From positions 4,907,301-4,971,300 of the forward strand of contig NC_087390.1 in the NCBI RefSeq assembly GCF_963675165.1: a stretch of DNA of 64,000 nucleotides, given 5' to 3'. This document shows, one piece after another, positions 1,848-34,300 of this stretch. Under the pieces are notes generated by a model. That model searched no databases and had not been told where the DNA came from. It saw only the letters and a program-made list of their open reading frames with translations. This DNA comes from Halichondria panicea. Its lineage: Eukaryota > Porifera > Demospongiae > Suberitida > Halichondriidae. Both the position numbers and the translations under genes were made by a program. Every line of letters starts with the position of its first letter. Within the stretch, counting starts at the first letter, position 1.

Positions 1848-4800
1848 ATGGCAGAGCTAGAGATATCTCGATCTGGACAGGTATGAGCTAGCTAGCCATG
1901 AGCAGCGATCCTCCTCTGGGTATGAGGTGTATAAATAAATATTTTTCTTGTAAATTGCTCCATGAATCAGTACTACACATGATATATAAATAGGGAGTCT
2001 GCTAACACTTCGAATATTTATGCATTTCTGGACGGCAACGATTTTGCTTGTCATGTTCCAGTAAAAATATAGCAAATTAATAGTAAATCTTTTTCCATCT
2101 AATCCGGATGGATTGTGTGTCTGGCATCTAATTTCCTTATCCCATGTAGACTCATGACATCCTCCATCCCTCAACATCTCTGGAGTGGGAGGAATGGCCT
2201 CCTCTACCAGTGGTGATGGTGAATGCCTCTTCAGTGTATCTGAATGGAACACTCTATGTCGGAGGAGGGATTGCCAATAGATCTAGTGGATTGAGAGATG
2301 ATGCTGCACTGTACTCATTCAAACCTGGAGTTGACAGCACATGGACAGTGACAGTCACACCCACCTATTGGTATACCCTTGCCGTCCATGACTTTGAACT
2401 GCTACTGGTGGGTGGGAAAGAGTATCCTATCAAAGAGATAACAAACAAAGTCTTCACGATGAGGGATGGACAGTTTGTTGAAGTACTGCCTCCTATGAAG
2501 GAGAGACGAGTGTCACCATCTGCTGTCAGTAGTGGGTCTGCACTAATTGTGGCTGGAGGGCGGAATATCTCAGGAGCACTCTCCTCTGTGGAAGTGTTCA
2601 AAGATGGTCAGTGGACGACTGCTCCCTCCCTACCAAGTGCAGAGTTTGGCATGCAGTCTGCTCTCCATGGTGACCAGTGGTACCTGATCATGAGTCTAGG
2701 GAAAGTGTTCTGTGCATCACTACAATCACTCATATTTGGAGCCGACCAGTTACCATGGGAGACGCTACCTGATGCTCCTAATCACTTTTCAGCTGCTGCC
2801 TTCTTTGGTGGCCATCTCTTGTCTATTGGAGGGGGTATCCCTGCACCCACAACCATCCATGCCTTCTCCACATTCACTCAGTCCTGGGAACATGTTGCTG
2901 ACCTGCCTCCATTACTGTATAGTAACCCAACAGCTGTTGCCCTGTCGAGCAAACAATTAATTGTGAGCGATGGTGCTAGAGTACTTCACGGAAAACTTAA
3001 GGGTGAGTTAGTTTTATGCCACAAATACTGTGCAATACAAATGCACAACCGTCATACAACCCTAGCTTTTCGCCTCACTTGAAATACACAAGTAGAAAAC
3101 ATAAGTTGACCACTTAAGGGGACCACATTATACCTGTGTACACAGACTACAGTCACTGTTCTACTAAAATAGTGTTACATGCACATTTATTTTAGCTTCT
3201 AATTCCAAGTTCTAACATGCTTAACAGAACATAATCTTTATTCACTGACACACACACACTTCACAGTGACTCCATTTGATGCTGACAGTCACTTCACTAT
3301 GAGAGCTATTGATCGCCTCAAAGTCTCAGCAGGAATCTCTGTGAAAGAGGAGCTTGTACAACACGCCTCACGCACTGCCTTCCTAGCTGTTGCTGGTGTG
3401 TATGTTCGGGAGATGTACAACTACATCTTGGGAGAGTGGGCGTCAGGACGTGGACCACACCCACCCACATGGGCAGAGCTGTTCAGAGCTCTCAAGGAAA
3501 AGGGCTTGAGTGAGCTGGCTGGTCGGATGGAGAAGTACTTGAGAGGGTCAGTTCTTGAGGACCCACCTCGACCACCCCCTGATGAGGAAGGTGACTCAGA
3601 GGAAGAGAAAGATGGTGAGATAATCAGTGATTATCTGTTTTTAACGTTTAATATTCCACAGATGAAACACCAGAGCAAGAAATTCTGAGGCTAAACAATG
3701 TGCTGGTTGAGTACATTAGTGCTAATACTCTACTGAAGAAGGAGAATATTCAATTGAAGAAGGCGAATATCAACCCTGAGCATCATTTGAAATCTGAGAA
3801 GGTGAAAGAAGAGCAACTATACCCAGCTTCTATCAAAGAGGAGCCAACATTTGACAAAGGTTTGAAACAATTTCTTTGGACAATGTACAAACAAAGATGA
3901 ACTTGTTGTTTGTAGATAATCAGTCGCCCTCATCTCCCCTGAAGCATATCAAACAGGAAACCATAGAGACCACTAAAGGTGAGTGATGGTATCAGCAGTA
4001 GTTGTAGGGTCAACCACTGTAGGGTTGAATCACAGAACATGAATACCGTATAGCGGGTAATTTTCGGGGGACAAAATATTCGTGGTTCAGCAATATTGAG
4101 ACATTTCGTGGATAATATTTTCGTGGTTGCTGCTTGGATTGTAGGTAAAGGTAGGCAAGGTCGCTTCATTCGTGGGTAAAATATTCGTGGTCAGACCTCC
4201 AACCACGAAAACCACGAATATTTTGCCCCACGAAAATTACCAGCTATACGGTACATTGTATTTTTTAGAACAAGCGTCCATTTGTCCGCAGAGCAGTGAA
4301 TGTTTACATCTATAATATTTATGCAAATACGTACTTCATGCATGTATGTATATCTATCTGCAGTGAAAAGTGAAGAACCAGTCTCACAGCTACTACCTTT
4401 GGAACTGTCCACTGTACAGCATCATGCAATACCATTCAGTGAGTTAGGTACCTCATTTGCATTGTTCTATACTGTTACCTCCACTCAGACCTCCCTGGTG
4501 TTGAAGTTTTGGCCAGTACGTGTGTGATTGTCACCAACTCACCCCAAATCTTCCGCTGGGTTGGCTATGGGTTCAAGCTCACCATACCCCAGGGCTCCCT
4601 GCCAGCTGGTGTTGACCAGTGTCGACTAGACATCAAGGCCAGTGTAGCTGGACAGTACCAGTTTCCTGATAATCTCCAGTTGGTCAGCGGTGTTATCTGG
4701 ATACGTCCTTATCCCTCGGGTCAATTCCAACAGCAGCTAACAGTCGAGATACAGCACTGTGCCAATATGACCAGCTCTACCAAGCTCTCATTTGTGAGAG

Positions 4801-7800
4801 CACATTGCTCCCAGAAGAGTCTGCCCTACACATTCAAGCAACTTGAAGGGCGTGGCTCGTTCACTGAGCACAGCTCGTACGGTTGTTTGAGTGTGAATCA
4901 TTTCAGTTCATTTGCAATAGCTGCGGAGGGTGATGTTGATCTACTTTATGTCGCTAGTCTATACTATCTGAAGGCCGACCCTCGGACCGTTGAGATTCAT
5001 TTCACAATCATCCCCAATGATGAAGTACATAATGCTGTGAGTGACAGGTTTTTTATGGTTTTTTGTGTGCCTAATATATTCTTAGGAAAAACAGAAGTAT
5101 TGAGCTTTCGTAGGTACACGCAAGAGTACTTATTGCGCAGTTCCTGATACAGGCGCACATACATGTACCACAGTTTACTCAACATGCCTCGTTAATTGAA
5201 TAGTGACGACTGTGATATGACGCAATTTAAGGCAAATGCGGTTTCACGTTTACTACAGGATATTCTTATCTACTCTTGGTACACGTCTACTCTTGGTACA
5301 CGTATTATTTAGAACACACCTAGCCAAGATTAAGTGTTTTAATGTGCGTGCCGAGGATGGCCTCGAGGTTAACGTGGTGCTCGAGGTGCAGCCGAGTGCA
5401 TTATGTAACCGAGAGGCCATCCGAGTGCACCAGCATTAAAACACGTGACTTGGCTAGGTGTGTTCTAAAGGATTTAGTGCTGTCACGTGAGCTCTAGCCT
5501 CGTGGCAGCTAGATCTAGCTACATTTTAAATCAGTTGCTGGTGGCTAGCTAGCTAGCTAGACGTAATAGCAAGTTTTAGTAGGTTTGTAGATCCAGTAAC
5601 TGATGCAAAGGAGAAGGAGATACGATCTAAAGCTATCTGGACTGACTGGGCATGTTCTCGACTTATTTCTCCTGCTGACCAACAGTCCCGATCCCACTAC
5701 TGGATACGCCTTCAGCTGATCTGGCTTACTGGATGGGAAACTTTGTGCGCAAACTATATGGCAATGAGTATCTGGTTTGCTCTTTCGGAAAGCTATGATA
5801 TTCGAAGCTATGGATCTGGCTTAGGTACATCTTCGAAGCAAGCTGAGCCTATTTCTCCAGACGAAAAAACGATGCTATGGTCAAGTCAGCAATTTGGTAC
5901 ACATGAAACAAGTCGAAACAATAACATTAAACTTTCTAATACTTTTTAGCTTTGCTTGTGTACGTGTACATATTCAATCTGCTTGTATTATTATTATAAT
6001 TATGATGACATTCAGATTCAATCTGCTTGTATTATGATTGTTTGATAAAAAGTGTGCATTAACAAACCAACTTAAAGCACACTTAAGTGTAGTATGGATT
6101 AAGTCAGAGATTGAAGAGAGAGGGATATGAAACTTGATGACGTGTACATACAATCCGTGTTGCCCAAAATGGGCGTGGCACATTGTCTTTACTGCAAGTT
6201 CTATGTAAAATCATGTAAAATACTTTGTGGGACTGTATCTCTGGACTTGCTGCTACATATACAACAAAGTTGATATTAAATGCAAGAGTGGACCTTTGGG
6301 AAGTGTAACAGCTCCTCAGCTAAGAGCCAAGAGACAGCTTGTTCGATCACTTCAACTTTTTTGACCTCTTGTACTTGTCCTGGAGCAAAATTTTGCAAAA
6401 TTGTACACTAAAAATCGATTATACTTTCAGCATCAGAGCGATCTAGCCTTTGAGACAGGCACAAGTACATAGAATACATAGCTAACATTAAAACTCATCA
6501 CTGAACCATCTTATGAAAACCAACTTGCTTTCTGCTACAGTCCCACAAAGGCTAGTATAGCCAATAAACCAGGGAATCTGGCGTTCTGGATTTTATTGCC
6601 ACCAAATATATTTTAAAACAATCTGTGGCTAGTCAATTATATGATCACAATACTTCAAGTGAGTCATCCAGCTTCCCATGGGCCTGTTTTGTTTTATTTG
6701 CAAATTAAACCGCCATTTTTATAGCAACACGGAGTGCCTAAACTTTTTACTCTGTTTTTACATTGAGCACATAAGCTCACGTGATCTAGTTTCATATCCC
6801 CTTCTCTTCAATCTCTGATTAAGTTATTTAATCCATGGTCACCTGACTGCTTTCAGATAAGCTGATTGGCTGGAGATCATGTGATCAGCACTAAAGTATA
6901 CTTAAATGTTACTTTTATGTTGTTGTTTTTATTCCTTTAGGCAACACAACATTATTTCCAAAAGTTGGGGGCGGAACAGAAACTGAATTTGGAAGTGGAG
7001 TTTGAAGGCTCAAATATTTCACTTGATATTCCAATATCCAGCGGTGTTGATGTCAATGAATGGAGACTAAAACCACTTGTTAAACCAAAAGTAACGTTTT
7101 GCAAATTCTTATACTACATCATAATTACAGTTTTGCGTGTATTGTATGCAGATATCAAAGAAATGGGTTGATTCATTCAAGCCGGGGAGAGCTGTTCCAT
7201 CCACAAAGCTGGTAGCGACACTCTCTGAGAGTAGCTGGGACTGCAAGGTACCAAGCCGCTCATATCTAACAACTTTGAAAGGAACTAAGGAGCCTGATAA
7301 CCAAATATGGATTGTTTTGGACCCAGTGGATCCAAAAGAAGGTATTGTGTCGATGGTATTTGTGTGAGTCCCTATACCTATAGTGCTCACCATTCAAAAT
7401 GTTGTCTGTCTGTCTGTCTACGGTGTGTCATGGACCGGCACAATATTTGTTGTTTGTACTCATGACCCTTTACCAACTTTTACGTGAATTGCTGCGCATG
7501 AACACAACTATAGCTAGCTCCACTCGACTCGGCACATGCAGATACTCTGAGGCCATATATAGGCACGCCTGCAGCAGGTCAGAGTTTGCAATAATCACTA
7601 CAACTACATGAATCATCATGGTAGCAATTATTAATTTAACACAACAACTCCATTATATGAACTCAACGCTGACGCTATTATGCTTAGTAGTTAGCTCTGT
7701 ACTAGAACGCTAGCTGCAAAGAAAGCTGCATTGCTTCATGGCTACCTTAGTTATATTGTATCACGTTGAGGCCTTCAAAAAATTGACAGGAGGGGCGAAG

Positions 7801-10299
7801 CGATTATTCGTATGCAAACGCACACGGCCATCTAGGGGGTCTCCCTCAGGACATTTTTGTGTTTAGAGCTAGACTGTCGTACATCGCATCTGGTGCATTC
7901 TTAGGAACTGTGGTGTCAGTTTTAGGGGTATTGTCATTAAGTACTAATAGTAGTGTGGAATGTAATAACAAATGCTGCAATCAATTGCGTAGGCTGATAA
8001 TGGTACTAGATAAAAGCCATAGCCTGAGCGACACAAGCCAATGAAAGTCGCTCTTGAATTGCCCTCTGTACTTACAGATAGTGACTTAGAAGAAGAAATT
8101 GTGGACCTATGGAACAGAAAGAGTAGAAGAATGGCAGTTTAATTAGAACTCGTTATGAATATTAAGGCAGAGCTCTTTGTTTAGTTGATTGGTGTGTCAC
8201 AGGCCGTAACACAGTGTGTTCTGGCCTATTGTTTCAATACAAAAATCAGGGGGCGAATCTGTAGCTAGGGGGGGCAAGCGCCCCCCCCCCTCTATGAAGC
8301 CCTGACGTTGTCAAGGTAACAAGGGTGTAATAAAAGTCATACAGTCCCTTCCGTGTTATATTATTTTTATTACACTAGCCTCGAGGCATGATTTGGTAAG
8401 GGTTATCGTGATATAAAATTAAACACATGCATATATAGCACGAGAATCCTTCTGCTTGTGTCATAAAACAGTTTTATATGCTATATCTAGTATTTACATA
8501 CAATGCCTTCTGTTTCTGTACAGAGACTAGAGAATTGCTGATGCAACTTCAGTCACATGCGATTCATTACCCACCCTCCCTTGGGCCACCTCACTATCCT
8601 GTGGCTTCACACTCTCGGAACATGTCAGGTGAGCCAGTCGTACGTGGCTATTTAGAATTGCTCTAATAACTATACCGCTGTGTTACCTGCCTATATGAAT
8701 TGAAGGCCAAACGGATACAGTATCCAAGGCCGTAGCAAGCGGTCAGGCTGGTGCTGACCATTTTTTGTAGCTAGTTAGGTAATGATTGTCATTTGAAATT
8801 GCATGATGGTTTCCTGGTAATGGTCATGCATTATGACTTTTTTTAGCAAAAATTTGCCTAGCCATTAGTTGGCCTGACCACTCAAAACTTGCTTGCTACG
8901 CCCCTGGTATCTGTACGTAATTGGCTGATTAGACTATCGTTGAGCGGGTAATTTTCGAGGGCCAATACTTTTAATTTTAACTGCGAAATGCTTGTTCAAT
9001 ACGAGTGTTGCAAGCGTGCGCTTGCTAATGCCTCTCGCCATGTTTTTGCTTTCACTCAAAAGTATAGAGTGTTATAAAGAGGAAAATAATTTGCAATGAG
9101 CTTTGATTGTTTCACAAGAAAGGGGTGTCCACAGTTAATAGTGCATACTGATCGTCTTAAATGGCCTGTAGCCAAACAGTGGGAGCAACAGCAGTCTAAG
9201 AGTTTAATCACAGAATTCAATCACAGAAAGTAGTATCTATAACAAGGAGACTAAAAAGAGTTATCAGAAAAGGTTGGTTTGTGGCTAGACTGGCGGCGAT
9301 AGCGCGAGCGACTGGCAAACTGCCTATAAGTCACTTGTCTCAGCGGAATCATATGACACTACCAAACATGAATATCATTAATACGGTACATGCAATAGAA
9401 ATAATACTTATACACATGATGCATGTGACTGTGTTCACACATATAGGCATTGCTGTGAACGAGGAGGATAAAGGAGATGAGAATCAATTAGGCACTAATG
9501 ATTTGCAAAATGTGTTCTCTCAATTGGTGGAGGCCGCTAAAGATTGGTTTGAGTTGGGCCTCGCTTTGGGGATTAAAGTTGACATCCTTGAGGGCATTGA
9601 TTCTAATAAGAACAGCGATAGAGCTCGCTTGCGTGAAATGCTGACCCACTGGCTGCGATCTTCACCTTCTCGTACATGGAGTGACATTTGCAATGGCCTT
9701 AGAAGTGACACTGTCAAACAAATCAATCTTGCTGATAAAATCGAGGAGAAATACAAAGGTGAATAATAATTATAATGGTGCATATACAAATCCCATGTCA
9801 CTTATATATACATGCACCAGTATAACACCAAATCTCATTGTCAGTAGCCCCTCCACAAGTGCCCAACCTGATGAGTGCACTAGCAATACCAGGTCAGCAA
9901 TCTGGTCGGGACTATCATCCATGGCCACTAGCCCCCATTTTACCACTGCTACAAGGTACAAGCAATTTTTATAATTGAATTTAACATTAATTGATACTTA
10001 GTCATCCCCATTGTGCATGACCAACCGTATGCTCTCCAGTCACAAATACATGTTGCTAGTAGACACTTGTCCTCATATCAGCACAGTATAATTATACATG
10101 CAACAGCTATCAATTAATAATACAAAACATGTTCCCCATGCAGAGCACTCGTCCCGACCACACCCCCTCACTGGTGAGAAGAGAGAGGCCACTGAACACA
10201 ATGAGCAAGGTGAGACAGTCAGTTGTTGTGATGATCTATTTTACTGGTGAGTGTCTCTATGCAGTTCCCCCCAAGAGACCTCGGTCAGAGGAACAGTGA
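1848..10299 (+). CDS. Kelch-ZU5-UPA-Death protein, gene 1
   Basis: Fourteen exons: 1848-1880, 2150-3002, 3267-3614, 3662-3859, 3916-3978, 4364-4438, 4489-5036, 6941-7090, 7152-7341, 8524-8628, 9447-9758, 9848-9955, 10144-10209, 10265-10299. All junctions are GT-AG and in phase, giving 1027 residues. The start MAELEISRSGQ is conserved in the copies. Residues about 12-295 form six Kelch blades; 296-411 are Death-fold-like (PPTWAELFRALKEKGLSELA); 412-477 are coiled coil; 478-523 carry SUMO-consensus sites; about 524-706 are ZU5 with HFS at 661-663; 707-819 are UPA-like; 855-958 are a Death domain. The C-terminus VPPKRPRSEEQ resembles a nuclear localisation signal. By analogy with PIDD1 and NLRP1, it may self-cleave at HFS and signal through the Death part. 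Ligand and partners are unknown. Intron 7 carries about 1.6 kb of inserted DNA absent from gene 4. Confidence 0.85.
4044..4253. mobile_element. MITE of the CCGTATAGC/ATTTTCG family in gene 1 intron 5
   Basis: Inverted ends read TACCGTATAGCGGGTAATTTTCG on the left and its approximate complement on the right, with 'cgtgg' motifs inside. The same insertion is present in gene 3 (28074-28283) and absent at this position in genes 2 and 4. Relatives of the family occur at about 20340, 39822 and 53662. Confidence 0.7.
5294..6895. mobile_element. 1.6-kb repeat insertion in gene 1 intron 7
   Basis: Gene 4 has the same intron but joins 'cttggtacac' directly to 'agtatacttaaatg' (near 46920). Gene 1 has about 1.6 kb between those words. 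The insert includes a foldback at 5308-5469 with arms TTTAGAACACACCTAGCCAA and its complement. A second, looser foldback has arms near 6091-6143 and 6778-6836, plus an inner pair near 6222 and 6536. I see no convincing coding sequence in it. Confidence 0.65.
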
Positions 10300-14372: not shown

Positions 14373-17300
14373 ATGGCAGAGCTAGAGATATCTCGATCTG
14401 GACAGGTATGAGCTAGCTAGCCATGAGCAGCGATCCTCCTCTGGGTATGAGGTGTATAAATAAATATTTTTCTTGTAAATTGCTCCATGAATCAGTACTA
14501 CACATGATATATAAATAGGGAGTCTGCTAACACTTCGAATATTCATGCATTTCTGGACGGCAACGATTTTGCTTGTCATGTTCCAGTAAAAATATAGCAA
14601 ATTAATAGTAAATCTTTTTCCATCTAATCCGGATGGATTGTGTGTCTGGCATCTAATTTCCTTATCCCATGTAGACTCATGACATCCTCCATCCCTCAAC
14701 ATCTCTGGAGTGGGAGGAATGGCCTCCTCTACCAGTGGGGATGATAAGTGCCTCTTCAGTGTATCTGAATGGAACACTCTATGTCGGAGGAGGGAGTACT
14801 ACTGATTTTAGAGTTGATGGTGCACTGTACTCATTCAAACCTGGAGTTGACAGCACATGGACAGTGACAGACACACCCACCTCTTACTACACCCTCCTCG
14901 CCCATGACTCTGAACTGCTACTGGTGGGTGGGCATGAGTATCTTACAGAAGAGATAACAAACAAAGTCTTCACGATGAGGGATGGACAGTTTGTTGAAGT
15001 ACTGCCTCCTATGAAGGAGAGACGAGTGTCACCATCTGCTGTCAGTAGTGGGTCTGCACTAATTGTGGCTGGGGGGTGGAATACTTCAGGAGGTCTCTCC
15101 TCTGTGGAAGTGTTCAAAGACAGCCAGTGGACGACCGCTCCCTCCCTACCAAGTGCAGGTTATGACATGAAGTCTGCTCTCCATAGTGACCAGTGGTACC
15201 TGATCACAGATCTAGGGAAAGTATTCTGTGCATCACTACAATCACTCATATCTGGAGCCGACCAGTTACCATGGGAGACGCTACCTGATGCTCCTAATCA
15301 CTTTTCAGCTGCTGCCTTCTTTGGTGGCCATCTCTTGTCTATTGGAGGGGGTATCCCTGACCTCACAACCATCCATGCCTTCTCCACATTCACTCAGTCC
15401 TGGGAACATGTTGCTGACCTGCCTCCATTACTGTGTAGTAACCCAACAGCTGTTGCCCTGTCGAGCAAACAATTAATTGTGAGCGATGGTGCTAGAGTAC
15501 TTCACGGAAAACTTAAGGGTGAGTTAGTTTTATGCCACAAATACTGTGCAATACAAATGCACAACCGTCATACAATCCTAGCTTTTCGCCTCACTTGAAA
15601 TACACAAGCTTTTATTAAAATAGAAAACATAAGTTGACCACTTAAGTGTGTACAGTGGGACCACATTATACCTGCGTACACAGACTACAGTCACTGTTCT
15701 ACTAAAATAGTGTTACATGCACATTTATTTTTGCTTCTAATTCCAAGTTCTAACATGCTTAACAGAACATAATCTTTATTCACTGACACACACACTTCAC
15801 AGTGACTCCATTTGATGCTAGCAGTCACTTTACTATGAGAGCTATTGATCGCCTCAAAGTCTCAGCAGGAATCTCTGTGATAGAGGAGCTTGTACAACAC
15901 ACCTCACCCACTGCCTTCCTGGCTATTGCTGGTGTGGATGTTCGGTCAATGTACAACTACATCTTGGGAGAGTGGGCGTCAGGACGTGGACCACACCCAC
16001 CCACATGGGCAGAGCTATTCAGAGCTCTCAAGGAGATGGGCTTGAGTGAGCTGGCAGATCGGATGGAGAAGTACTTGAGAGGGTCAGTTCTTGAGGACCC
16101 ACCTCGACCACTCCCTGATGAGGAAGGTGACTCAGAGGAGGAGAAAGATGGTGAGATAATCAGTGATTATCAGTTTTTAACGTTTAAAATTCCACAGATG
16201 AAACACCAGAGCAAGAAATTCTCAGGTTAAACAATGTGCTGGCTGAGTACATTAGTGCTAATATTCAATTGAAGAAGGCAAACAACAACCTTGAGCAAGA
16301 GAATACTCATTTGAAATCTGAGAAGGTGAAAGAAGAACAAATGGACCTAGTCTCTGTCAAAGAGGAACCAATATCCGTCCAAGGTTTGAAAGAACTGTGC
16401 ATGTACATGCGATAAACTAGCCTCCTTCACCGGCCTTCACAGAAAAGAAGGCCTGCTATCGACTGCTTGCGCATGCGCAAAATTATTGAATATTTTTCGC
16501 GTAAAATTTCCTATAATACAGAATTCATCAGAGAAAATATCCTAAAAGTCGTACACAGAGCTATATAGCTAGCTAGCTAGAGACAGAGCTGTGTAGGTTT
16601 GTTGTACAGCTATTTCCTTCTCAGTAGCAGTAGTATAGTAGACTTCAAAGTTAGTGTTAAATGGGCGTGGCCTGTCCATATAGGCTCTTGTCAGCTTTCA
16701 CTCCGTTCAGACGATCGTCATCCACACTGTTGCAGGCTGTGAGTCTTTTGTTAACATAGCAGGCTAAGGGTAGCTATCAGAGAATGCTATCCGATGGGCT
16801 AAAAACCTTCAATCGAACTTTCTATCTACTTCCTTCAATCCACTTCCGTTCGTTGTGATGTCATAGTTTTACTGAGCATATACGATGTTATCCAAAGCCC
16901 CCCAGATACTGGGGGGATATTAGCGCATGCGCAAGCAGTCGATACCAGGCCCACTTCCCTGAGTGAAGTGCGGCCTGGGATCGAGGCTAGCGATTAAACA
17001 TAAACTTGTTGTTTGTAGATTATCAGTCGCCCTCATCTCCCCTGAAGTATATCAAACAGGAAACCAATGCTGAGCCACAGACCACTGATGGTGAGTGATG
17101 GTATCACAATTTGACAATAGAATCCAACTAGCTACTTTATAGCGAGTAATTTTCGTTAGTGCAAATTTTCGTGTGGGCTACGAAGTTTATATACATGTAA
17201 TGCAAATATACGTACAACTCAGAATAGTGATATACATGGTACATAGAACATTAGAAGACTTTTCTGGATAATGCTGTACAATACAATATTTTCACCATAC

Positions 17301-18134
17301 GAAATTAAACTGCTATAGGTTGAATGACAGAAATGTACTAATAAATAATCCTCAATCCACACATTTGCCTCCTTAATCATAATGCAGGTTTTAAACCCAG
17401 GGCTCGAAATAACAGTTTGACACCTGACAAAATCCGGTCATTATATGCACGTGACAGATCATTCCACGTGTTAGTCAGACATTTTGTCGGAGTATACATG
17501 TAGAGCTAGCCAGTTTAGGTTAGCTATTTTAGCACGTCCTTGTCGGAGCTCTAGTAGCTCAGAACAAGAAGTGTGGATAAATGGATCAGTTAAAATTACC
17601 AAGAATTACAAATTGCATCATGGCTGTACATTGAATGTAGTTATAGCTAGCTGAGAGTAAGCGAACTATCTGAAGTTAATTCTTAGTTTGTTCTCTCACT
17701 TTGGCTGGTGGATCTCTCTCTACAAAGTTTCATGATAAGCTACGTATCAGGCCTAAGAAACTTGAACGAGTTTATTGATGGCTCATGGAATACTCGAGCG
17801 TCCAACTTAATTTCTCATTTTCGGTAAAGGACCATGGCCCTGGGCTATAGCCCAAGATATTTGTCAAAAACAGGCCCAAAATAGACTTCGAAGATCATGC
17901 TGCCAGCCTCATGCACAAGATCAAAAACTAATTAACGACAGTGTGCCTATAATTATCTGATTTTTAATAGAAATTATAAATAGTATTGCCAACTTTATAT
18001 ATATTATGTTGATTGCATGTCAGAGCAAAATTACATTTTGTCGGATCAAAACATTAATTGGACTGACATTTCGACGGTCATGCTAATAATTTTAGCGCGA
18101 GCCCTGGGTTTTAGTGTTTATTTTATTATACGAT

Positions 18135-18194
<60 letters not shown>

Positions 18195-21100
18195 CTGCTA
18201 CAGCTGCTCTAGAAGTGCAAGTACCGTAAAAACTCGATTTAAAACGACACTTTTAAATAATTACGTTTTGCAAAAGTAAACATTTTAATGTACAGAACAA
18301 AAAAATTTATATGGTGCTACATGTATATGGGCGAAATGCCAAGTGTCGCTTTAAATAGAGGGTCGCCTTAAATCGAGGTTTTACGGTAAGAGTTTCTATA
18401 GGCTTCTATAGTCATGTTTTCTTGGATTTTAATTCGTGGATTTGCAAAATAATGCTTCGTTCTCGAGTTACATGTATGCCTAGTTTTGCTTTCAGTACTT
18501 GGAATGCCATTGCAGCCTTTTCAGAAGAGCACGTAGCAAAACTTGGTCACCGAGTGTTGCTACTCTACTTAGTAGTTAGCTCTGCTCTCTATTGGTAGCT
18601 GCAAGAGTGAGAAGAGAGCTGCAAGGCTCTGCTGACTTGTAGCCATTAATTTTAGACTTGTCAAATGAGTGTTTGGCATCGATCGTTTTTAACAACAATA
18701 ATCGTCGATCATTACCCACTCTTTGTATTCAAAAATATTGTAGTGCTTACCTTTATGTTATGTAGCTTTGGCACCTCCACCGAGGCATCAGCACTTGCGG
18801 TGCTTCCATTTTATAGGTTGTTCATATAATTATACCAACCACCCCGACTAGTGTGGGCACATGTACAAAACTACGTATCTCTAGACCCAATCGTTTAATA
18901 TCTATATCTGCAGTGAAAAGTGAAGAACCAGTCTCACAGCTACTACCTTTGGGACTGTCCACTGTACAGCATCATGCAATACCATTCGGTGAGTTAGGTA
19001 CCTCATTTGCATTGTTCTATACTGTTACCTCCACTCAGACCTCCCTGGTGTTGAAGTGGTGGCCAGCACTTGTGTGATCATCACCAACTCACCCCAAACC
19101 TTCCACTGGGTTGGCTATGGGTTCAAGCTCACCATACTCCAGGGCTCCCTGCCAGCTGGTGTTGACCAGTGTCGACTAGACATCAAGGCCAGTGTAGCTG
19201 GACAGTACCAGTTTCCTGACAATCTCCAGTTGGTCAGCTGTGTCTTCTGGGTACGTCCTTATCCCTCGGGTCGATTCCAACAGCAGCTGACAGTCGAGAT
19301 ACAGCACTGTGCCAAGATGACCAGCTCCACTAACCTCTCATTTGTGAGAGCACATTGCTCCCAGAAGAGTCTGCCCTACACATTCAAGCAGCTTGAAGGG
19401 CGTGGCTCGTTCACTGAGCACAGCTCGTATGGATCACTGGAGCTGAACCACTTTAGTGGACTGGCTGTGACCGGAGAGGATGTGGAGAAACACTACACTG
19501 CCAGCCTCTACTACTATCCACACATCAAGCATACCACAAAGATTGATGTAGTATTGTCTTGGAATGATGAAGCTCACGTTTCGGTAATGTTCAAATGTCT
19601 TAAGGTTATATTTCAGATTTCCTTGTGCAGGCTGTGGAACAATTTTATGAAAGAAAGGGAGCAGAGAAAGGGTCCCATCTCACAATAGAGTTTGAAGTTC
19701 CGAGTGAAGCAATATCTCTTGACATTCCCATGCTTGAGGGTATTGAGAAAGATGGATGGAAGATTTACCCACTAGTAACACCTATTGTGAGTATAGTGCC
19801 TAGTTTCAGTTTGTCATACTGTAATGATGTAATGATTTAGGTTACAAGAGGGGAGGTGGACTCATTTAAGCCTCGTACATACGTTCCGTCCCTCCAACTG
19901 AAAGCCAAAGTGCTGCGCCGTGATGAAGCGCAAGATCTTTCTTATGTTTTAAATCTGATAGGAGCCAGGGAACCCAAGAACAAGCTGTTAGTGGAAGTAG
20001 AGCTAGCAGAAAGAATTAATACTTATGGTTGGTGTACTTCAATTAAAACTGTTCATCCTTTCACCTTGCATTCATCTGACAGCAGACTCTCTCCTTGCCG
20101 ATCGAGCACTTGTACCATCACAAGGTAAAGAGAAACACTACAATATAGAAATTGCATAAGACATTCTATGGCTATTATGATTATAATTATGCAGTACTCA
20201 GTACTGAATTGATGGCCAAAGTGATAAAGTTTACAGTAACTGACTAATTTGACATTATAATTATCTTTTATTCAGTGTTTAGACCTTGTTTCTCATCATG
20301 CAGCCCCCGCTTGTGGTAAAAAGTATGCTTCCTTATATATACCTTATAGCGCGAAATTTTCAAGGCACTTATTTCGTGGAATGGCCTCTAAAAAGTTGCA
20401 TAATGTTCGTGGAATTACTGCTTACCGGAAGCCATATCTTTAATATTTGCACGTTATACAGATAATTCTAACGATTTTCATGGACTTAATTTGCATGTAG
20501 AATTGCTAACCCACGAAATCTGTGAAAATTACGCCCCTCGAAAATTTCACGCTATAATTATGTTATAGGGGCTAATACTGGCTAATACTGTACGTGTATT
20601 CGTGCTCTTTTATAGAAGTGATGTGCCATGCATGTGCTGATAACCACATATTAATAAGAGAATATTTGCTGTTTTTCCTGTATACTTTTGACGACGTAAT
20701 GAATAATAAACTTTGCCTGCCAAGGATCAAAATTAATGACGTCACTATTAATTATCACACTTTACACACACATTTTTTTTTATAGGCATTCAATTTGCCG
20801 ATGATAAAGGAGATAAGAATCAATTAGGCACTAATGATTTGCAAGATGTGTTTTCTCAATTGGTGGAGGCCGCTAAAGATTGGTTTGAGTTGGGCCTCGC
20901 TTTGAGGATTAAAGTTGACATCCTTGAGGGCATTGATTCTAATAAGAACAGCGATAGAGCTCGCTTGCGTGAAATGCTGACCCACTGGCTGCGATCTTCA
21001 CCTTCTCGTACATGGAGTGACATTTGCAATGGCCTTAGAAGTGACACTGTTAAACAAATCAATCTGGCAGATAAAATTGAGGAGAAATACAAAGGTACAA

Positions 21101-22262
21101 TCATCCAAACGTGCTTATACAACTAAAGCACACATCGCTTTCATTTTTAGTCGACTTAAAACTGAGTATAAGGTACATGTATGTATAGATGCCTGAGTCA
21201 GGAGGTATTATGGGCCACTTTCAAAACGCTTCCAAACGTTCAGCATAATACTCTTTACACTACATGAACTAATATGAAACACTTTGATCCCTCTTAGCAT
21301 GGTTAGTGCATTTTTCAGTAGATTATGGCAGTCAGTGCCTATGTGTTTTATATACATATTTGACTGCACAATGATATAATTATGTAATGTACCGTATATG
21401 CTTGATCAGGAGCCGCGGCTACTAAATGTTTCATTTTGATGGAAGAAGAGGCTACAATTCGAGAGAGGCCACTGTTCAAGAGCGACGTTTATTAGCTCCA
21501 GCTAATTCAACAACCTTTAGTTTGTCATCAAAAGTTCTTAGCTCTGCCGTGAGAAAGTCTTTAACATATAGTAGCGCTAGTATTATTGTTTGGCTGCCGC
21601 ATGCAGAAATGCTAGTCAAAGTTCACTGAGGCTACTATTTGAGAGCGGCTACTAAAATTAATGTTTGTTAACAAGGAAGGCTACTATATGAGTGCGGCCT
21701 CTGATCGAGCATAATTATACGGTATTCGTTTGATTTGGTCATTAGGTGTTGAAAATGCATTTAGTGGTCGTGATTAATTAATGAAGTTTCATTTGAGCCT
21801 CTACGCCTCTTTGTTTTTGAAGAACGACATAATTTGTATTTTGCACATCGCTACAAATAAAGTACAATTTTCTGGCATAACAACGTCACTATCCTGTGCT
21901 GTACGAATATTAAAATTCGAAATGGGTAATTATGCACCAATGAAAATTACCTGGTATACGGCAAAAAAATGACCTGCATGACTGTTTTAATCGTACATGT
22001 ATTAATAGCACATTTTTCTACATATTAGGTGACTCATTATATACCAACATTAATTTTTTGTAGAACTTGCATCCATTATAATTAACAGGATATGTTCCCC
22101 ATGCAGAGTACTCGTCCCGACCACGCCCCATCACTGGTGAGAAGAGAGAGGCCACTGAACACACTGAGCAAGGTGAAACAGTCAGTTGTTGTGATGGTCT
22201 ATTTTACTGGTGAGTGTCTCCATGCAGTTCCCCCCAAGAGACCTCGGTCAGAGGAGCAGTGA
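14373..22262 (+). CDS. Kelch-ZU5-UPA-Death protein, gene 2
   Basis: Thirteen exons: 14373-14405, 14675-15518, 15803-16150, 16198-16383, 17019-17090, 18914-18988, 19039-19583, 19631-19786, 19841-20027, 20083-20124, 20786-21094, 22107-22172, 22228-22262. The spliced frame is open for 965 residues. The domain order is as in gene 1, with HFS at residues 657-659 (bases 19449-19457). The Kelch loops differ from the other copies (GGGSTTDFRVDG; AGYDMKS; ITDLGK). The UPA-like part (VDSFKPRTYVPSLQLKAKV) is divergent from gene 1. It lacks the HYPPSLGPPHYP exon and has instead a 14-residue exon (ADSLLADRALVPSQ). The tail VPPKRPRSEEQ is basic and NLS-like. The long introns hold several MITEs and a TG microsatellite. 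Confidence 0.85.
16417..16990. mobile_element. MITE of the GCATGCGCAAGCAGTCGATA family in gene 2 intron 4
   Basis: About 570 bp with CTAGCCTC...GAGGCTAG ends and subterminal inverted words 'ctatcgactgcttgcgcatgcg' and complement. The same insertion sits in gene 4 (44005-44885), there with another element nested inside. A third copy lies in reverse orientation at 35084-35669. Genes 1 and 3 lack it at this position. Confidence 0.75.
18135..18191. repeat. (TG)n microsatellite
   Basis: About 28 TG units, almost uninterrupted, in intron 5 of gene 2. A shorter, interrupted version is at the matching place in gene 4 (about 45293-45335). Confidence 0.9.
18222..18388. mobile_element. MITE with TACCGTAAAA...CTCGATTTAA ends
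   Basis: Ends read TACCGTAAAAACTCGATTTA and its complement, with inner words 'gacactttta' and 'gtgtcgcttt'. A worn copy is in gene 4 at about 45362-45509 and a longer relative at 50519-50896. Confidence 0.7.
20340..20556. mobile_element. MITE of the TATAGCGCGAAATTTTC family
   Basis: Inverted ends 'accttatagcgcgaaatttt' and 'aaaatttcacgctataat' with 'cgtggaat' words inside, in the intron before the Death exon of gene 2. Same family as 4044-4253 and 53662-53893. Confidence 0.65.
21390..21724. mobile_element. MITE with ACCGTATATGCTTGATCAG ends
   Basis: Left end TACCGTATATGCTTGATCAG, right end 'ctgatcgagcataattatacggta'. A second copy is nested in another element at 44150-44445. Confidence 0.7.
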
Positions 22263-25878: not shown

Positions 25879-28800
25879 ATGGCAGAGCTAGAGATATCTC
25901 GATCTGGACAGGTATGAGCTAGCTAGCCATGAGCAGCGATCCTCCTCTGGGTATGAGGTGTATAAATAAATATTTTTCTTGTAAATTGTTCCATGAATCA
26001 GTACTACACATGATATATAAATAGGGAGTCTGCTAACACTTCGAATATTCATGCATTTCTGGACGGCAACGATTTTGCTTGTCATGTTCCAGTAAAAATA
26101 ATAGCAAATTAATAGTAAATCTTTTTCCATCTAATCCGGATGGATTGTGTGTCTGGCATCTAATTTCCTTATCCCATGTAGACTCATGACATCCTCCATC
26201 CCTCAACATCTCTGGAGTGGGAGGAGTGGCAGGAATGGCCTCCTCTACCAGTGGGGATGATGAATGCCTCTTTAGTGTATCTGAATGGAACACTCTATGT
26301 CGGGGGAAAGTTTACTACTGATTTGAGAGCTGCTGCTTCACTGTACTCATTCAAACCTGGAGTTGACAGCACATGGACAGTGACAGTCACACCCACCTAT
26401 TGGTATACCCTTGTCGTCCATGACTCTGAACTGCTACTGGTGGGTGGGAAAGAGTATCCTATCAAAGAGATAACAAACAAAGTCTTCACGATGAGGGATG
26501 GACAGTTTGTTGAAGTACTGCCTCCTATGAAGGAGAGACGAGTGTCACCATCTGCTGTCAGTAGTGGGTCTGCACTAATTGTGGCTGGAGGGCGGAATAT
26601 CTCAAGAGTACTCTCCTCTGTGGAAGTGTTCAAAGATGGTCAGTGGACGACTGCTCCCTCCCTACCACGTGCAGCATATGAGATGAAGTCTGCTCTCTAT
26701 GGTGACCAGTGGTACCTGATCACATATGAGGGAAAAGTATTCTGTGCATCACTACAATCACTCATATCTGGAGCCGACCAGTTACCATGGGAGACGCTAC
26801 CTGATGCTCCTAATCACTTTTCAGCTGCTGCCTTCTTTGGTGGCCATCTCTTGTCTATTGGAGGGGGTATCCCTGACCCCACAACCATCCATGCCTTCTC
26901 CACATTCACTCAGTCCTGGGAACATGTTGCTGACCTGCCTCCATTACTGTATAGTAACCCAACAGCTGTTGCCCTGTCGAGCAAACAATTAATTGTGAGC
27001 GATGGTGCTAGAGTACTTCACGGAAAACTTAAGGGTGAGTTAGTTTTATGCCACAAATACTGTGCAATACAAATGCACAACCGTCATACAACCCTAGCTT
27101 TTCGCCTCACTTGAAATACACAAGTAGAAAACATAAGTTGACCACTTAAGGGGACCACATTATACCTGTGTACACAGACTACAGTCACTATTCTACTAAA
27201 GTAGCATACATGCACATTTATTTTAGCTTCTAATTCCAAGTTCTAACGTGCTTAACAGAACATAATCTTTATTCACTGACACACACACACTTCACAGTGA
27301 CTCCATTTGATGCTGACAGTCACTTCACTATGAGAGCTATTGATCGCCTCAAAGTCTCAGCAGGAATCTCTGTGAAAGAGGAGCTTGTACAACACGCCTC
27401 ACGCACTGCCTTCCTAGCTGTTGCTGGTGTGGATGTTCGGGAGATGTACAACTACATCTTGGGAGAGTGGGCGTCAGGACGTGGACCACACCCACCCACA
27501 TGGGCAGAGCTGTTCAGAGCTCTCAAGGAGATGGGCTTGAGTGAGCTGGCTGGTCGGATGGAGAAGTACTTGAGAGGGTCAGTTCTTGAGGACCCACCTC
27601 GACCACCCCCTGATGAGGAAGGTGACTCAGAGGAAGAGAAAGATGGTGAGATAATCAGTGATTATCTGTTTTTAACGTTTAATATTCCACAGATGAAACA
27701 CCAGAGCAAGAAATTCTGAGGCTAAACAATGTGCTGGTTGAGTACATTAGTGCTAATACTCTACTGAAGAAGGAGAATATTCAATTGAAGAAGGCGAATA
27801 TCAACCCTGAGCATCATTTGAAATCTGAGAAGGTGAAAGAAGAGCAACTAGACCCAGCTTCTATCAAAGAGGAGCCAACATTTGACAAAGGTTTGAAACA
27901 ATTTCTTTGGACAATGTACAAACAAAGATGAACTTGTTGTTTGTAGATAATCAGTCGCCCTCATCTCCCCTGAAGCATATCAAACAGGAAACCATAGAGA
28001 CCACTAAAGGTGAGTGATGGTATCAGCAGTAGTTGTAGGGTCAACCACTGTAGGTTGAATCACAGAACATGAATACCGTATAGCAGGTAATTTTCGGGGG
28101 ACAAAATATTCGTGGTTCAGCAATATTGAGACATTTCGTGGATAATATTTTCGTGGTTGCTGCTTGGATTGTAGGTAAAGGTAGGCAAGGTTGCTTCATT
28201 CGTGGGTAAAATATTCGTGGTCAGACCTCCAACCACGAAAACCACGAATATTTTGCCCCACGAAAATTACCAGCTATACGGTACATTGTATTTTTTAGAA
28301 CAAGCGTCCATTTGTCCGCATAGCAGTGAATGTTTACATCTATAATATTTATGCAAATACGTACTTCATGCATGTATGTATATCTATCTGCAGTGAAAAG
28401 TGAAGAACCAGTCTCACAATTAATTGTGAGCGATGGTGCTAGAGTACTTCACGGAAAACTTAAGGGTGAGTTAGTTTTATACCGCAAATACTGTGCAATA
28501 CAAATGCACAACCGTCGTCATACAACCGTAGCTTTTCACTTCACTTGAAATACACAAGCTTTTATTAAAATAGAAAACATAAGTTGACCCACTTAAGGTT
28601 ACGGTCAACCGTTTGCTCATTAATTATTCATGAGCTAGATCTAGTGATCTTTTCCAGCTAGAATGATCTGGAAGTCCAGCTGAAACGCAGTAGTCATTTC
28701 ATGGCTCGAATAGACATTTTTACTATAAAGCTTAGGTACAGTCTACTGTAGCTTCACTATATGCAGGGCGGGTCGAAGAGATATTTCGAAAAAAGGCTAC

Positions 28801-31352
28801 TGAAAGCTCACAAGAGGCTGTTTTCCTTGGCTCTGGCCGCCATTTTAAGTGGAGTTAGTCTACATATTATTATTTTGTGAGAGTTTGTTGGCCTGGAAAG
28901 AAAAAAACGCTTCGACCCGCCCTCCAGAATGGTAAGAAGCATCATATAAGAGCAAGAACACAGAGCTACATGTAGAAGTGTTTTTGGAAGTTTAAAATGA
29001 CTACTAGTTTTGTGTTGTTTCTAGTAACTTGATGATCGCTCAGAGTTTCCACTGGAAAATGTTTTGAAGATTGATACTTGTCATACAGGATGATACACCA
29101 ATATATTTATCATGTGTGTGCTTCAAATTTTTATCATGGCATTTATAGTTTCACAAAAATCATTATAAGAAAATCATGAATATTCATGAGCAAACTGTTT
29201 ACCGTAACCTTAAGTGTGTACAGTGGGACCACATTATACCTGTGTACACAGACTACGGTCAATATTCTACTAAAGTAGCGTACATGCACATTTATTTTTG
29301 CTTCTAATTCCAAGTTTTAACATGCTTAACAGAACATAATAGCTAGTTAATTATGAACCCTTTGTGTGAATGGATTCATTAGGTGGAGAAAGTTCTGTGA
29401 CTGAATTGAGAGCTGAAGTGAAGCGACGGCTACCAGAGTATGAGAGTCTGGAGGCGGAGCTGGATCAGTTAACATATGATTATAACTATCTAGCTGACAA
29501 GATTCACCAGCTAGAAAAAGGTACAAAAATCGATTGTATAATCAGTTAGGTATTCAGCTGTGACCATACAGAAAATGAGCATCTGCGAAACGAGAATTAT
29601 CATCTCCGAGCCGAGAGCAAAGGACTGGTTCTAGAGAAGCAGGAACTCAAGGTTGAACCAGGTGAGTCACAGAGGGTGAATTAGCCTCGACCCCAGGCCG
29701 ATTTGTCTCCAATTTAACGCTAGGTCGCCTCCTCGGCCTGGTAATGATTAATCTTGGCGTGACCGAAACTGTACATTCATTGATAATAATTTGTGCCATG
29801 TACTGTACAATGTAAAATCTTTGTTCTTCAGTACAGTGGCTAAAAATACAGTGATATAATCATAAATGACACTAGAGTGCTAGTCCATGTGGTCAATCGA
29901 GATAATGGCTGTTTTTTTGTAGAGTGTACTTCGTCCATATAAATAGACAGATGTTTAGAAGTAAGGATCTCAAACAAGAGCTTCCAGAGAGGCTCAATAC
30001 TGCATTGGATATGCCTGCTAAGCCTTCAGGTGGCATGACAAAGATTGTGTGTTCACAGTGTATCAGAATCCTGACATTACTGGCCAGATAGCAACTAAAG
30101 TGTTGAAAGAGCCATATCTAGGCTTGAGGCTATTATGCTCCAAATTTTACCAGTTATTCTATTCTCCAATTCCCAAGCTATAGCCTATTATTCTCAGTGA
30201 TTTAGCCCATTATTCTCATAAAAAATCATTAAAGTCACAATAAAAATCATCTTTTGATAAATTGCAACACAAGTGAAGTCTCTACATAATTATAATGATA
30301 TAATATGTACATAGTCCTGAAGAGCATTGTCTTGCTGATCACCAAACGAAGTGCCCTGAGTTGATCCAGCATCGATATGTCTCTACTTGTTGGAACTGGA
30401 ATTGGCTTCAGTAGGTTCAGTAATCTAATCTCTTGATTTTCTAGCTAGCTAGCTAGCCTTACCGGTAAAGACAGACCATAGTACTAATCTCTTGATTTTC
30501 TTCAGATTCCATATAAAGTACTAGTAGTCTACTATACTGTCTATGGTCTGTCTTTACCGGTAAGGCTATCCCAATGAATATAGATATAAACAACCATCGG
30601 ATCTCCCCATGTGATACTGTAAAGTACCTTGGTGTTACTATCAATAATGATCTAAAATGGGCATGTCACATACACAACACCTGCAAGAAGGCCAAACAAC
30701 ATCTTGGCTTCATCCATCGCAAGTTCCATAAATCACCACCTCAGATCAGGAACCAGATCTACCGCACGGCTGTTCTGCCTAAGTTAGACTATTGCGGTGC
30801 AGTCTGGGACCCTCATCACCACACAGATATAAAAAAACTGGAAAGCGTCCAAAAATTTGCAGGGAAAATTGTAACGAAGCAGTGGAGGGCAGAATACCCT
30901 GACCTGCTTGCCTCCTTAAACTGGAAACCTCTGTCATCTCGAAGGAAAAACCAAAAACTGAAAGTCTGCTTTAATATACTTAATAATTTATCAATAATAT
31001 CTCCCAATGTTTTCACCCTCCATCCTCGCCCTTCCCCCCGTCACCCTCATAATCAAATTATTTTTAAACCATATGTTAAAACCCTAGCCCATAGACATTC
31101 CTTTTTTGTAAGCGTAATCCCCATTTGGAATTCCCTTCCCCTAAATGTTATCAGTAGCCCTAGCCCATCTGCTTTTAAATTATCCCTGTCAAAATTATAG
31201 CAATAAGTTAAAAATTTTTTTTTTTTCCTTTTTTCTTTTTTTCACTTAAGTACACCTGCACCTGCACCTTTACTTTTTGGTTATGGACTGACTTCATTAT
31301 TAGCTTCATTTAGCTACCTTGTCATATCCTGTATGCTTCCTCTGCATCAAAC

Positions 31353-31388
<36 letters not shown>

Positions 31389-34300
31389 TAGCTAGCTAGC
31401 TAGAAATTTATAAATCAAGAGATTAGATTACTGAACCTACTGCATGAAGCCAATTCCAGTTCCAACAAGTAGAGACATATCGATGCTGGATCAACTCAAG
31501 CTAGCTAGCTGCATATGCAGTCTAGTCCAGATAAGAGTACAATCAAATCAATGGTAATTGTGCTTTATTTAGAATGCTAACCACATGGAATAATTATTCC
31601 CACCCACTCTACCGTTTATTCCCGCATAATTCCTAATGCTTCAAGCTACCTATTATTCTCAAAATTATGCTCGCATAAATCGCCGCATCCCTAGCCATAT
31701 CCACTTCAGTGGTTTTAGTACAGGTACGTAGTTCTATAAGATTAGCCCCTTAGGAAGAGTGGGACTGGGGCAATGAGTACGACGGGGGTTGGAGAGGAAA
31801 GGCTCGATTTTGCTCCTGTATACAATGATACTTAAATTCATCATTCTATACTATACGGGTTCCATATCAATAATTATTCAACGAAATTTAAAACGTGACG
31901 TCTTCAGAATTGCACGAAACTTGGTATGTGTATAAGGAATGGTATGATAACATCTCAGAAAAAATGTTGGGTTTGTAAACAATAATTATGGCTTCTGAGA
32001 TTGAAAAAATGCAGAAATTCCCTACTTTTAGGAACTGGCTGCTGTTAGTTACACTGTAACTTTCTAACCATGATGTATGTGTATCTGCAGTGAAAAGTGA
32101 GGAACCAGTCTCACAGCTAATACCTTTGGGACTGTCTACTGTACAGCATCATGCAATACCATTCAGTGAGTTAGGTACCTCATTTGCATTGTTCTATACT
32201 GTTACCTCCACTCAGTCCTCCCTGGTGTTGAAGTGGTGGCCAGCACGTGTGTGATCGTCACAAACTCACCCCAAACCTTCCACTGGGTTGGCTATGGGTT
32301 CAAGCTCACCATACCCCCGGGCTCCCTGCCAGCTGGTGTTGACCAGTGTCGACTAGACATCAAGGCCAGTGTAGCTGGACATTACCAGTTTCCTGACAAT
32401 CTCCAGTTGATCAGCGGTGTCTTCTGGATGCGTCCTTATCCGTCGGGTAAATTCCAACAACAGCTGACAGTCGAGATACAACACTGTGCCAAGATGACCA
32501 GCTCCACTAAGCTCTCATTTGTGAGAGCACATTGCTCCCAGGAGAGTCTGCCCTACACATTCAAGCAGCTTGAAGGGCGTGGCTCCTTCACTGAGCACAG
32601 CTCGTATGGATCACTGGAGCTGAGCCACTTTAGTGGACTGGCTGTAACTGGAGAGGATGTGGAGAGAGTGTACACTGCCAGCCTCTACTACCTTGGCTCA
32701 GAGCTGCATAGCAGGGAAATACATTTTGTCGTCAACTGGGATAATGAGATTCATAAAACAGTAAGTGATAGTTTTATTCTCACAACCTGAATTCATTATT
32801 TTGTTACAGCATGTGAGTGAGGAGTACTCCTCTAAAAGAGCTGTTCTCGGAGTGAATCATTTTGTTGAGTTTGAGGAGGACAGTTTAACACTGGATATTC
32901 CTATGGCTGGTGCTAAAGTCAAGGGAGGATGGAAAATAACACCAATGTTTCATCCTACGGTAGGAAGTATGATTTTCAATAGCATACTTACATCATCTGT
33001 ATAGCTTATATAGGCCATCATAATGAATTACAAAATTGTATATAGGTCATCAAGAAGCATGTTGATCAGTTCAAGCCTGGACAGAGAATTCCCTACTGCC
33101 ACTTGAAAGCCGAGATGACAAACAAGCGAAAGAAATCTGCTACAAAGCTATTCCACCAAGTCAAGCTAGTGGGTGCAAAAGATCCTTACAATATCATTAC
33201 AATGGATCTGGACCCCCAGCGAACTCTTCCAGGTCAGAACGATGTGTTATTTTTGGTATTTTAATATTTTCTACAGAAACTACGTTTGGTGACCTGGTAG
33301 TCTTCAAACCTGCTGTGTCGTCTCAAGGGAATGGTAAGTCAGCAATATCAGCTTACCATGTATGTGCTGTAGATCATTGCATACAAAACGTGTACAGTAT
33401 TTATAAACTGATGTGCTATAATAAGTGTTTACAGAACACAGAAGAGAATGTTACTTTTATGCATGAACCACACATTTATATTCAATAATTAATACCACGG
33501 GCTTATACCTTAAGGTGACATATTTTCGTGAGTATTAATTTCTGTGAATGAGAGTAAAATCGCAAAAATATGTTACCAGCAAAATGAGCTAAACAGTGAA
33601 ATTGCAGACAAATCTACCTGTGAAAATATGTCACCTTAAGAAGAGTGCATGCAACTCACTCTCTACCCTATGTTATCCAGAGAAGGTACAACGTATGGGT
33701 TGACCTTTTTCCCAATCGGTCGCTAATGAATTACTCCCGTATTGCATTCCGCAGCATGACAAGATGTAACGCCCACATAATTTGTGTGTTGACTCAGCAG
33801 GTATTTTATGCACATCAGCATTATTTTATTCTTCGTGTTTATGTCTTCTGAAGAGGCGTCTTCTATCAATCTTAGTACATTAGAAATCTACTAGAAGTGT
33901 TACATTGATGGGCAGGAGCCTATAGAAAGCGCAACATACACTATAATATTCTAGCTCATTTCTTCAACTACGACTATGCTAATGCCTATTCATTTTCTTA
34001 TGTCACAGGATATAGCTAGGCATTGTTTATAACTACTGTGGAGTACTGAGAATAGCCTGAGTTGCATGCCCTCTTCTCTTTATAAGCCCTTAATTATTAC
34101 AATGCCTTCTATTTCTGTACAGAGGCTAATGAATTGCTGATGCAACCTCAGTCACATGCGACTCATTACCCACCCTCCCTTGGACCACCTCACTATCCTG
34201 TGGCCTCACACTCTCGGAACATGTCAGGTGAGCCAGTGTTTAGTAATTATATTGCTCTAATACTACTTGAATTAATGGTCAAACTAATGCACTTTTCTTT

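Follow-up and report, generated by a model that had tools for sequence, protein, structure and literature searches.

Tandem Kelch-headed ZU5-Death genes in Halichondria panicea: candidate intracellular receptors with a conserved Phe-Ser motif

Can a Kelch propeller act as the sensor of a receptor that cuts itself at the end of its ZU5 domain? This question is raised by a 64,000-nucleotide stretch of the Halichondria panicea genome (GCF_963675165.1, contig NC_087390.1, positions 4,907,301 to 4,971,300; hereafter called "the window", in whose numbering coordinates are given). The window carries four genes in tandem (genes 1–4, all on the plus strand), each with a Kelch exon followed by a ZU5 exon, a region in the position of UPA, and a Death exon. 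We analyzed these genes together with their relatives in the genome, which was searched over 131 Mb and 39 contigs. With moderate confidence, we propose that they are tandem intracellular-receptor genes on the PIDD1/UNC5CL/NLRP1 plan, with the Kelch head as a new sensor; the self-cleavage and the signalling are predictions drawn from the sequence.

Gene 1 yields an open chain: 13 exons, separated by GT-AG introns, lead from Kelch at 2150 to the stop codon at 10299. This openness is partly by construction, because the script retained only open GT-AG choices close to boundaries that we had set. The resulting model comprises 1017 residues, with the first exon(s) excluded. The Kelch exon (2150..3002) matches Pfam Kelch_6 (E 2.8e-11) and Kelch_1 (E 5.3e-11), and gene 4, the only other gene scanned, reaches 3.2e-13; both Pfam families are over cut-off. 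The propeller head claimed in the preliminary description is upheld by the Pfam matches of genes 1 and 4 and by the chain to ZU5 and Death, while its six blades were counted by eye only. The next recognizable domain is ZU5, in an exon (4489..5036) that also encodes the first stretch after the motif discussed below. Its Pfam match in gene 1 (E 4.4e-5) lies above the curated cut-off, as do those of gene 4 (1.9e-5) and gene 3 (1.8e-4); gene 2 stays below it (E 0.14) despite 78% identity to gene 1. Against solved structures, a profile of the family ZU5 found ZO-1 (7e-8) and ankyrin (1.5e-4), with UNC5B at chance level (E 1.3). Finally, the Death exon of gene 1 (9447..9758) matches Pfam Death at 1.7e-5, or 1.3e-5 with the tail included, and its counterparts in genes 2 and 3 are 94–97% identical to it in nucleotides. 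Gene 4 has a different Death exon (53907-54332, Pfam E 3.2e-7); the Death domain of genes 1–3 and the other Death-type exon of gene 4 are as first described. Death is spliced to the UPA position in genes 1–3 and follows it by order only in gene 4. Such open chains would allow a single protein with all these parts; its production is a separate matter.

Where would such a protein cut itself? At the end of ZU5, all four genes read His-Phe-Ser (HFS) in frame, at 4899-4907, 19449-19457, 32626-32634, and 46544-46552 in genes 1–4, respectively. The motif falls in a single alignment column across the four ZU5 exons (H137, F138, and S139 of the 182-residue exon), in agreement with the earlier claim that it stands at the same place in each. 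In gene 1, the in-frame reading and the alignment with a PIDD1-like HFS mark it as the presumed F/S cleavage site. Among the copies with at least 66% identity, hereafter called the "close copies", 34 of 38 were examined, the four window genes included. Phe-Ser is present in all 34, as the full HFS in 20, QFS in eight, RFS in two, and EFS, YFS, KFS, and NFS in one each; in the Kelch-headed genes, the counts are 16/16 for Phe-Ser and 12/16 for HFS. The variation of the residue before Phe is consistent with CARD8, which has Ser before the Phe, where a Ser-to-Ala change costs little (PMC3210808). Phe-Ser also occurs in 13 of the 16 mid-distance copies and at two of 15 distant ZU5 motif sites (L050-L065), both within one PIDD1-like protein, and nine of these 15 sites read HFC. 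The HFC sites have Cys in the place of the nucleophile and might cleave too.

Does the family motif correspond to the HFS of this PIDD1-like protein? The protein, L062 (C17:5476671-5478847, minus strand), has a ZU5 match over the Pfam cut-off, two HFS motifs, and leucine-rich repeat (LRR) matches (E 1.2e-5) below the cut-offs; together these suggest the label "PIDD1-like", which the sub-cut-off LRR matches weaken. A profile of the 34 close copies alone placed the family motif on the first L062 HFS at E 0.029, as compared with 0.11 for a chance frame of another locus and, at best, 0.76 in 200 shuffles. A 70-row profile of the wider family, with L062 excluded, scored L062 at 25.6 bits (highest score among 500 shuffles, 4.2), and the family motif fell on both HFS motifs (first unit E 1.7e-4, second 0.51), although the register was not imposed. 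The 70-row result strengthens the register of the motif with the PIDD1-like HFS.

Autocleavage of NLRP1 (PMC8081665) and of CARD8 (PMC3210808) requires a His located 27 residues before the Ser. In the family ZU5 exon, H105 (4803..4805 in gene 1) stands 34 residues ahead of the Ser and is, by the alignments, a candidate equivalent of NLRP1 H1186 and CARD8 H270. The places of H270, E279, and S297 in CARD8 were confirmed on the PDB sequence, and H105 and E119 approximate the NLRP1/CARD8 catalytic places, as judged by spacing and eye, if some residues are inserted in the family. H105 is found in all four window genes, 14 of the 16 Kelch-headed genes, 21 of the 34 close copies, and none of the 16 mid-distance copies. 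Since it is absent from the mid-distance copies, from many close copies, and from both HFS units of L062, H105 is no sure marker.

In its place and its length, the region following HFS is as expected for UPA. In gene 1 it comprises two exons (6941..7090 and 7152..7341), located by the splice chain and the family profile; among the close copies, the first was found in 34/34 and the second in 33/34 (gene 1 counted from the window). Of the ZU5-UPA-Death plan put forward earlier, the order Kelch-ZU5-Death and the HFS at the end of ZU5 stand, and UPA is assigned by position as a candidate domain.

How far does this architecture extend in the genome? A search with Kelch scored 137 of 399 candidates and listed 137 matches. 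At least 16 Kelch-headed copies are strong matches (E below 1e-100) among those listed, and 15 of them lie on one contig. By coordinates, a family ZU5 exon lies downstream of each of the 16 strong Kelch exons, on the same strand and within 6 kb. Between Kelch and ZU5, 12 of the 16 genes carry form 1 of a middle domain and the other four carry a related form 2.

At least 121 further Kelch matches show 28–36% identity, many in dense arrays (C1 15.5-17.4 Mb, C6 0.4-0.8 Mb, and elsewhere). In addition, upstream DNA was read for three ZU5 copies without the family Kelch: L084 is preceded by ankyrin repeats (Pfam Ank), L082 by a long open frame that is coil-like by eye, and L083 has a stretch, also coil-like by eye, that shares an open frame with ZU5. 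Each is a likely alternative head for the ZU5 back half of the family, as read from the unspliced DNA of the three copies. Near L079 and L080 (two of the three regions read, L079-L081), there is a 384-residue exon without a Pfam match that resembles a death-fold, TRADD-N-like, by eye and for which the genome gives 35 matches with E below 1e-30. As a sponge marker, silicatein was also searched for; the best full-length matches have 45–52% identity, which does not separate silicatein from cathepsin.

The ligand-face loops of the Kelch heads change fast. In the KLHL family, the loops of the d-a and b-c face bind substrates (PMC10146909). We defined the d-a and b-c loops by rule (84 codons, versus 200 other codons), in place of a previous set chosen by eye. 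The ratio of nonsynonymous to synonymous change (omega) among the 16 Kelch exons is 1.08 in the loops, as compared with 0.44 in the rest. In a control with 283 rotations of the loop set, the difference always stayed below the observed 0.206, although the nearest rotation came to 0.196, and 18 of the 20 most variable Kelch codons are located in loops, where 5.9 are expected. For the other parts, omega is 0.66 in the e2 exon (four window genes), and 0.14 in Death (three window genes).

The ZU5 exon consists of two parts with different histories. Its codons 1–131 are 85–99% identical in nucleotides among the 16 Kelch-headed genes, while the last 51 codons split into types: type A in genes 1 and 4 (W1, W4), L069, L071-L074, and L076; type B in gene 3 (W3), L067, L068, and L070; type C in gene 2 (W2) and L077; and L075 and L078 as singles. 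Over these 51 codons, type A is only 48–61% identical to the other types. The nucleotide match of gene 1 with genes 2 and 3 stops at exon base 394, at about codon 131, and HFS is encoded by codons 137–139; the likeness thus ends about six codons before the motif. The same break separates L076 from L077 (95.7% identity before, 50.7% after), and L067 resembles gene 1 before the break (96.7%) and gene 3 after it (96.0%). From Kelch through the fourth exon, the window gene most similar to gene 1 is gene 3; in the UPA exons, it is gene 4. The UPA types are old and reassorted among genes. Between types A and B, the proportion of synonymous difference (pS) rises from 0.17 before the break to 0.81 after it, which argues that the types are old and that the first part was evened out by conversion or exchange. 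With synonymous sites near saturation between these types, the retention of Phe-Ser exceeds what chance would leave. Omega is 0.31 before the break and 0.24–0.28 after it.

On these observations, we propose the following course of events. The head would be a Kelch propeller with fast-evolving ligand-face loops, followed by a family-specific helical-looking domain, a coil, a linker, ZU5, the UPA-position region, and Death. During folding, the protein would cut itself between Phe and Ser, and the two pieces would remain bound, as with CARD8 (PMC3210808). Target binding by the piece that carries Kelch, followed by the displacement or degradation of this piece, would free the UPA-Death piece. The freed tail would then cluster and recruit Death-domain partners; in NLRP1 and CARD8, UPA promotes the clustering of the tail (PMC7794386). 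A further idea, which we offer tentatively and consider doubtful, is that the presumed cut site doubles as a recombination seam, making Kelch-ZU5 and UPA-Death separately exchangeable cassettes, in which the variable Kelch loops would set the target, a few old UPA types would set which freed tails assemble with one another, and the shared Death would set the output.

Several observations weigh against the self-cleaving receptor. The full HFS is not invariant, being kept in 20 of the 34 close copies. The match to the catalytic His was made by spacing and eye only (34 residues before Ser, versus 27 in CARD8), and H105 is missing from 13 of the 34 close copies and, at that column, from both HFS units of L062. 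In the Kelch loops, silent change is also higher (pS 0.28 versus 0.19), and their omega near 1 may reflect diversifying or relaxed selection. As for UPA, its Pfam models have no match in genes 1–3, gene 1 giving one chance-level match to another family, and an exon-by-exon search of the genome with PF17217 found no match anywhere. A ZU5+UPA profile met no solved structure in the PDB up to E 10, and when HMMER and hhalign were used to compare the UPA part with NLRP1, CARD8, UNC5B, and ankyrins, no score exceeded those of shuffled sequences. In the control for this comparison, NLRP1 and CARD8 were likewise not linked to UNC5B or ankyrins. Because known UPA pairs fail equally, the sequence nulls for UPA are uninformative, and we did not use them against the proposal.

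Could the same architecture work without a cut? The protein might stay whole and closed, as a scaffold of the UNC5B and ankyrin kind, until its ligand opens it, and Phe-Ser might be kept for the packing of Phe. UNC5B and ankyrins share the ZU5-UPA-Death order and are not known to self-cleave. Moreover, 13 of the 34 close copies keep Phe-Ser without the candidate catalytic His, HFC stands at nine of the 15 distant motif sites, and UNC5B has Leu in the place of Phe (PMC3210808). However, it is the Ser as well as the Phe that is present in all 34 close copies, and the motif aligns with the HFS sites of the PIDD1-like protein. We regard an uncut scaffold as rather unlikely.

A different alternative concerns the role only, and is compatible with the cut and with the receptor plan: the genes might encode regulators of cell death or development, similar to PIDD1 or UNC5, instead of immune sensors. 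The back half is shared with PIDD1 and UNC5 (see also PMC3210808), and the basic tail of gene 1, noted by eye, might direct a fragment to the nucleus. However, the number of Kelch-headed copies (no fewer than 16, with 15 on a single contig) and their fast-evolving ligand-face loops fit the recognition of varying targets better, and a regulatory role seems unlikely to us. Finally, a decaying array, in which some copies work, many are by-products of duplication or conversion, and the motif reflects recent common descent, would suit the extra base in the UPA-position exon of gene 4, the end of gene 3 three residues short, and the high likeness of the ZU5 part among copies, but is quite improbable given the omega values of 0.14 in Death, 0.31 in ZU5, and 0.24–0.28 after the motif and the retention of Phe-Ser across types with near-saturated synonymous sites (pS 0.81).

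The remaining exons of gene 1 complete the chain. The helical-looking domain with an acidic tail (e2, 3267..3614) belongs to no Pfam family; it appeared Death-like by eye and was rejected as Death, being matched by no Pfam Death model. It is followed by an exon (3662..3859) that is coiled-coil-like by eye and contains a psi-K-x-E motif, and by short linker exons (3916-3978 and 4364-4438) with IKQE and VKSE motifs, all placed by the splice chain. The repeated psi-K-x-E motifs over 3662-4438 (IKEE, IKQE, VKSE) are possible SUMO sites by eye. A Pro/His-rich linker exon (8524..8628) precedes Death, and three tail exons (9845-9955, 10144-10209, and 10265-10299) follow it, these four also being placed by the chain. 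The last ends in a basic stretch resembling a nuclear localization signal, immediately before the stop; its PPKRPR (10265-10299) is a possible nuclear signal by eye. As a candidate start of gene 1, there is an open stretch at 1500-1886, whose end fits as a donor and which has no above-chance Pfam match.

The other three genes follow the same layout. Gene 2 (14675..22262) is an open chain of 11 exons with Kelch at 14675-15518, ZU5 at 19039-19583, UPA-position exons at 19631-19786 and 19841-20027, and Death at 20786-21094. Gene 3 (26182..36261), with 12 exons by its splice chains, has Kelch at 26182-27034, ZU5 at 32216-32760, UPA-position exons at 32810-32959 and 33046-33232, and Death at 34663-34980; its stop lies three residues ahead of the usual end, and it otherwise has one open frame from Kelch to the end. 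Gene 4 (42246..54451) was delineated by Pfam, nucleotide comparison, a partial chain, and the HFS reading. It has Kelch at 42246-43089, ZU5 at 46137-46681, UPA-position exons at 46970-47120 and 47182-47371, and, linked to these by order only, the other Death exon, which is an open frame, and a tail exon (54386-54451). Gene 4 chains through ZU5, and the exon at 46970-47120 contains an extra A, beyond which no open chain was found. This exon looks damaged; the extra A, which lies in a run of A, may be true damage or a sequencing error.

Within gene 3, a small duplicate (28394-28465) fuses the beginning of the linker exon to the end of the Kelch exon, possibly a trace of unequal exchange, and an intron contains an open frame (30517-31200) that resembles by eye the final part of the reverse transcriptase of a long interspersed nuclear element (LINE), without a Pfam match. 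A Death-like exon at 62681-63094, 40% identical to the Death of gene 1, has a Pfam E of 0.0058, below the cut-off, and perhaps belongs to a next gene. Pieces of a TRMT10-like tRNA methyltransferase lie on the minus strand ahead of the array units (201-392 and 697-987), with similar stretches near 12.6-13.5, 24.0-25.0, and 40.9-41.2 kb; three pieces joined match PF01746 at E 1e-5, slightly short of the cut-off.

What would it mean if these proteins cleave? In that case, the ZU5-UPA switch that cuts itself in a few vertebrate proteins would be a general chassis; another animal lineage, probably early-branching, would have added a propeller sensor to it and then diversified the result. The family would also offer no fewer than 16 natural variants, differing in sensor, cut site, and UPA type, on which to test the roles of the cut and of UPA.

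How do these genes compare with the known systems? NLRP1 and CARD8 are cut between F and S at the end of ZU5, with UPA and a death-fold following and an upstream His that is similarly placed by eye; they differ in having CARD in place of Death and in their other heads. FIIND (Pfam PF13553) gave no clear match in the family (two of 21 members matched, best E 0.045). UNC5CL (ZUD) shares the ZU5-UPA-Death order and autocleavage, and lacks a propeller head. UNC5B and ankyrins share this domain order as well; ankyrins are matched by the family ZU5 profile, which reaches UNC5B at no better than E 1.3. PIDD1 is alike in its ZU5 with HFS followed by UPA and Death. It has an LRR head and two ZU5 domains, whereas the array genes have a Kelch head and one ZU5, and the PIDD1-like L062 is a separate gene of the same genome. 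PIDD1 autocleaves at its HFS, and UNC5B differs from the array genes in having Leu and no Phe-Ser (PMC3210808).

In early animals, expanded sets of TRADD-N genes with exchanged heads have been described; some of these genes are fused to FIIND or UPA-ZU5, and autoproteolysis is predicted for them (PMC8195603). NACHT-ZU5 genes have been noted in early-diverging animals (PMC12909245). The main texts of both papers do not contain the word Kelch, and neither TRADD-N nor NACHT was seen in the array genes. Single Kelch-motif genes decreased in two sponges after microbial cues (PMC6208332), which is a lead only. A single record combined Kelch, ZU5, and UPA, and was set aside because Kelch was the name of an author. 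The preliminary impression that the pairing of Kelch with ZU5-Death is undescribed apparently holds: no Kelch-ZU5-Death protein was found among the papers listed, by title and abstract opening, with most subscription journals outside the scope. The exchange of sensors on death-fold and ZU5 parts with predicted self-cleavage is known (PMC8195603). The Kelch head is most likely new here, as are the break in likeness just before HFS, the reassorted UPA types, and the fast-evolving Kelch loops as compared with the slow Death domain.

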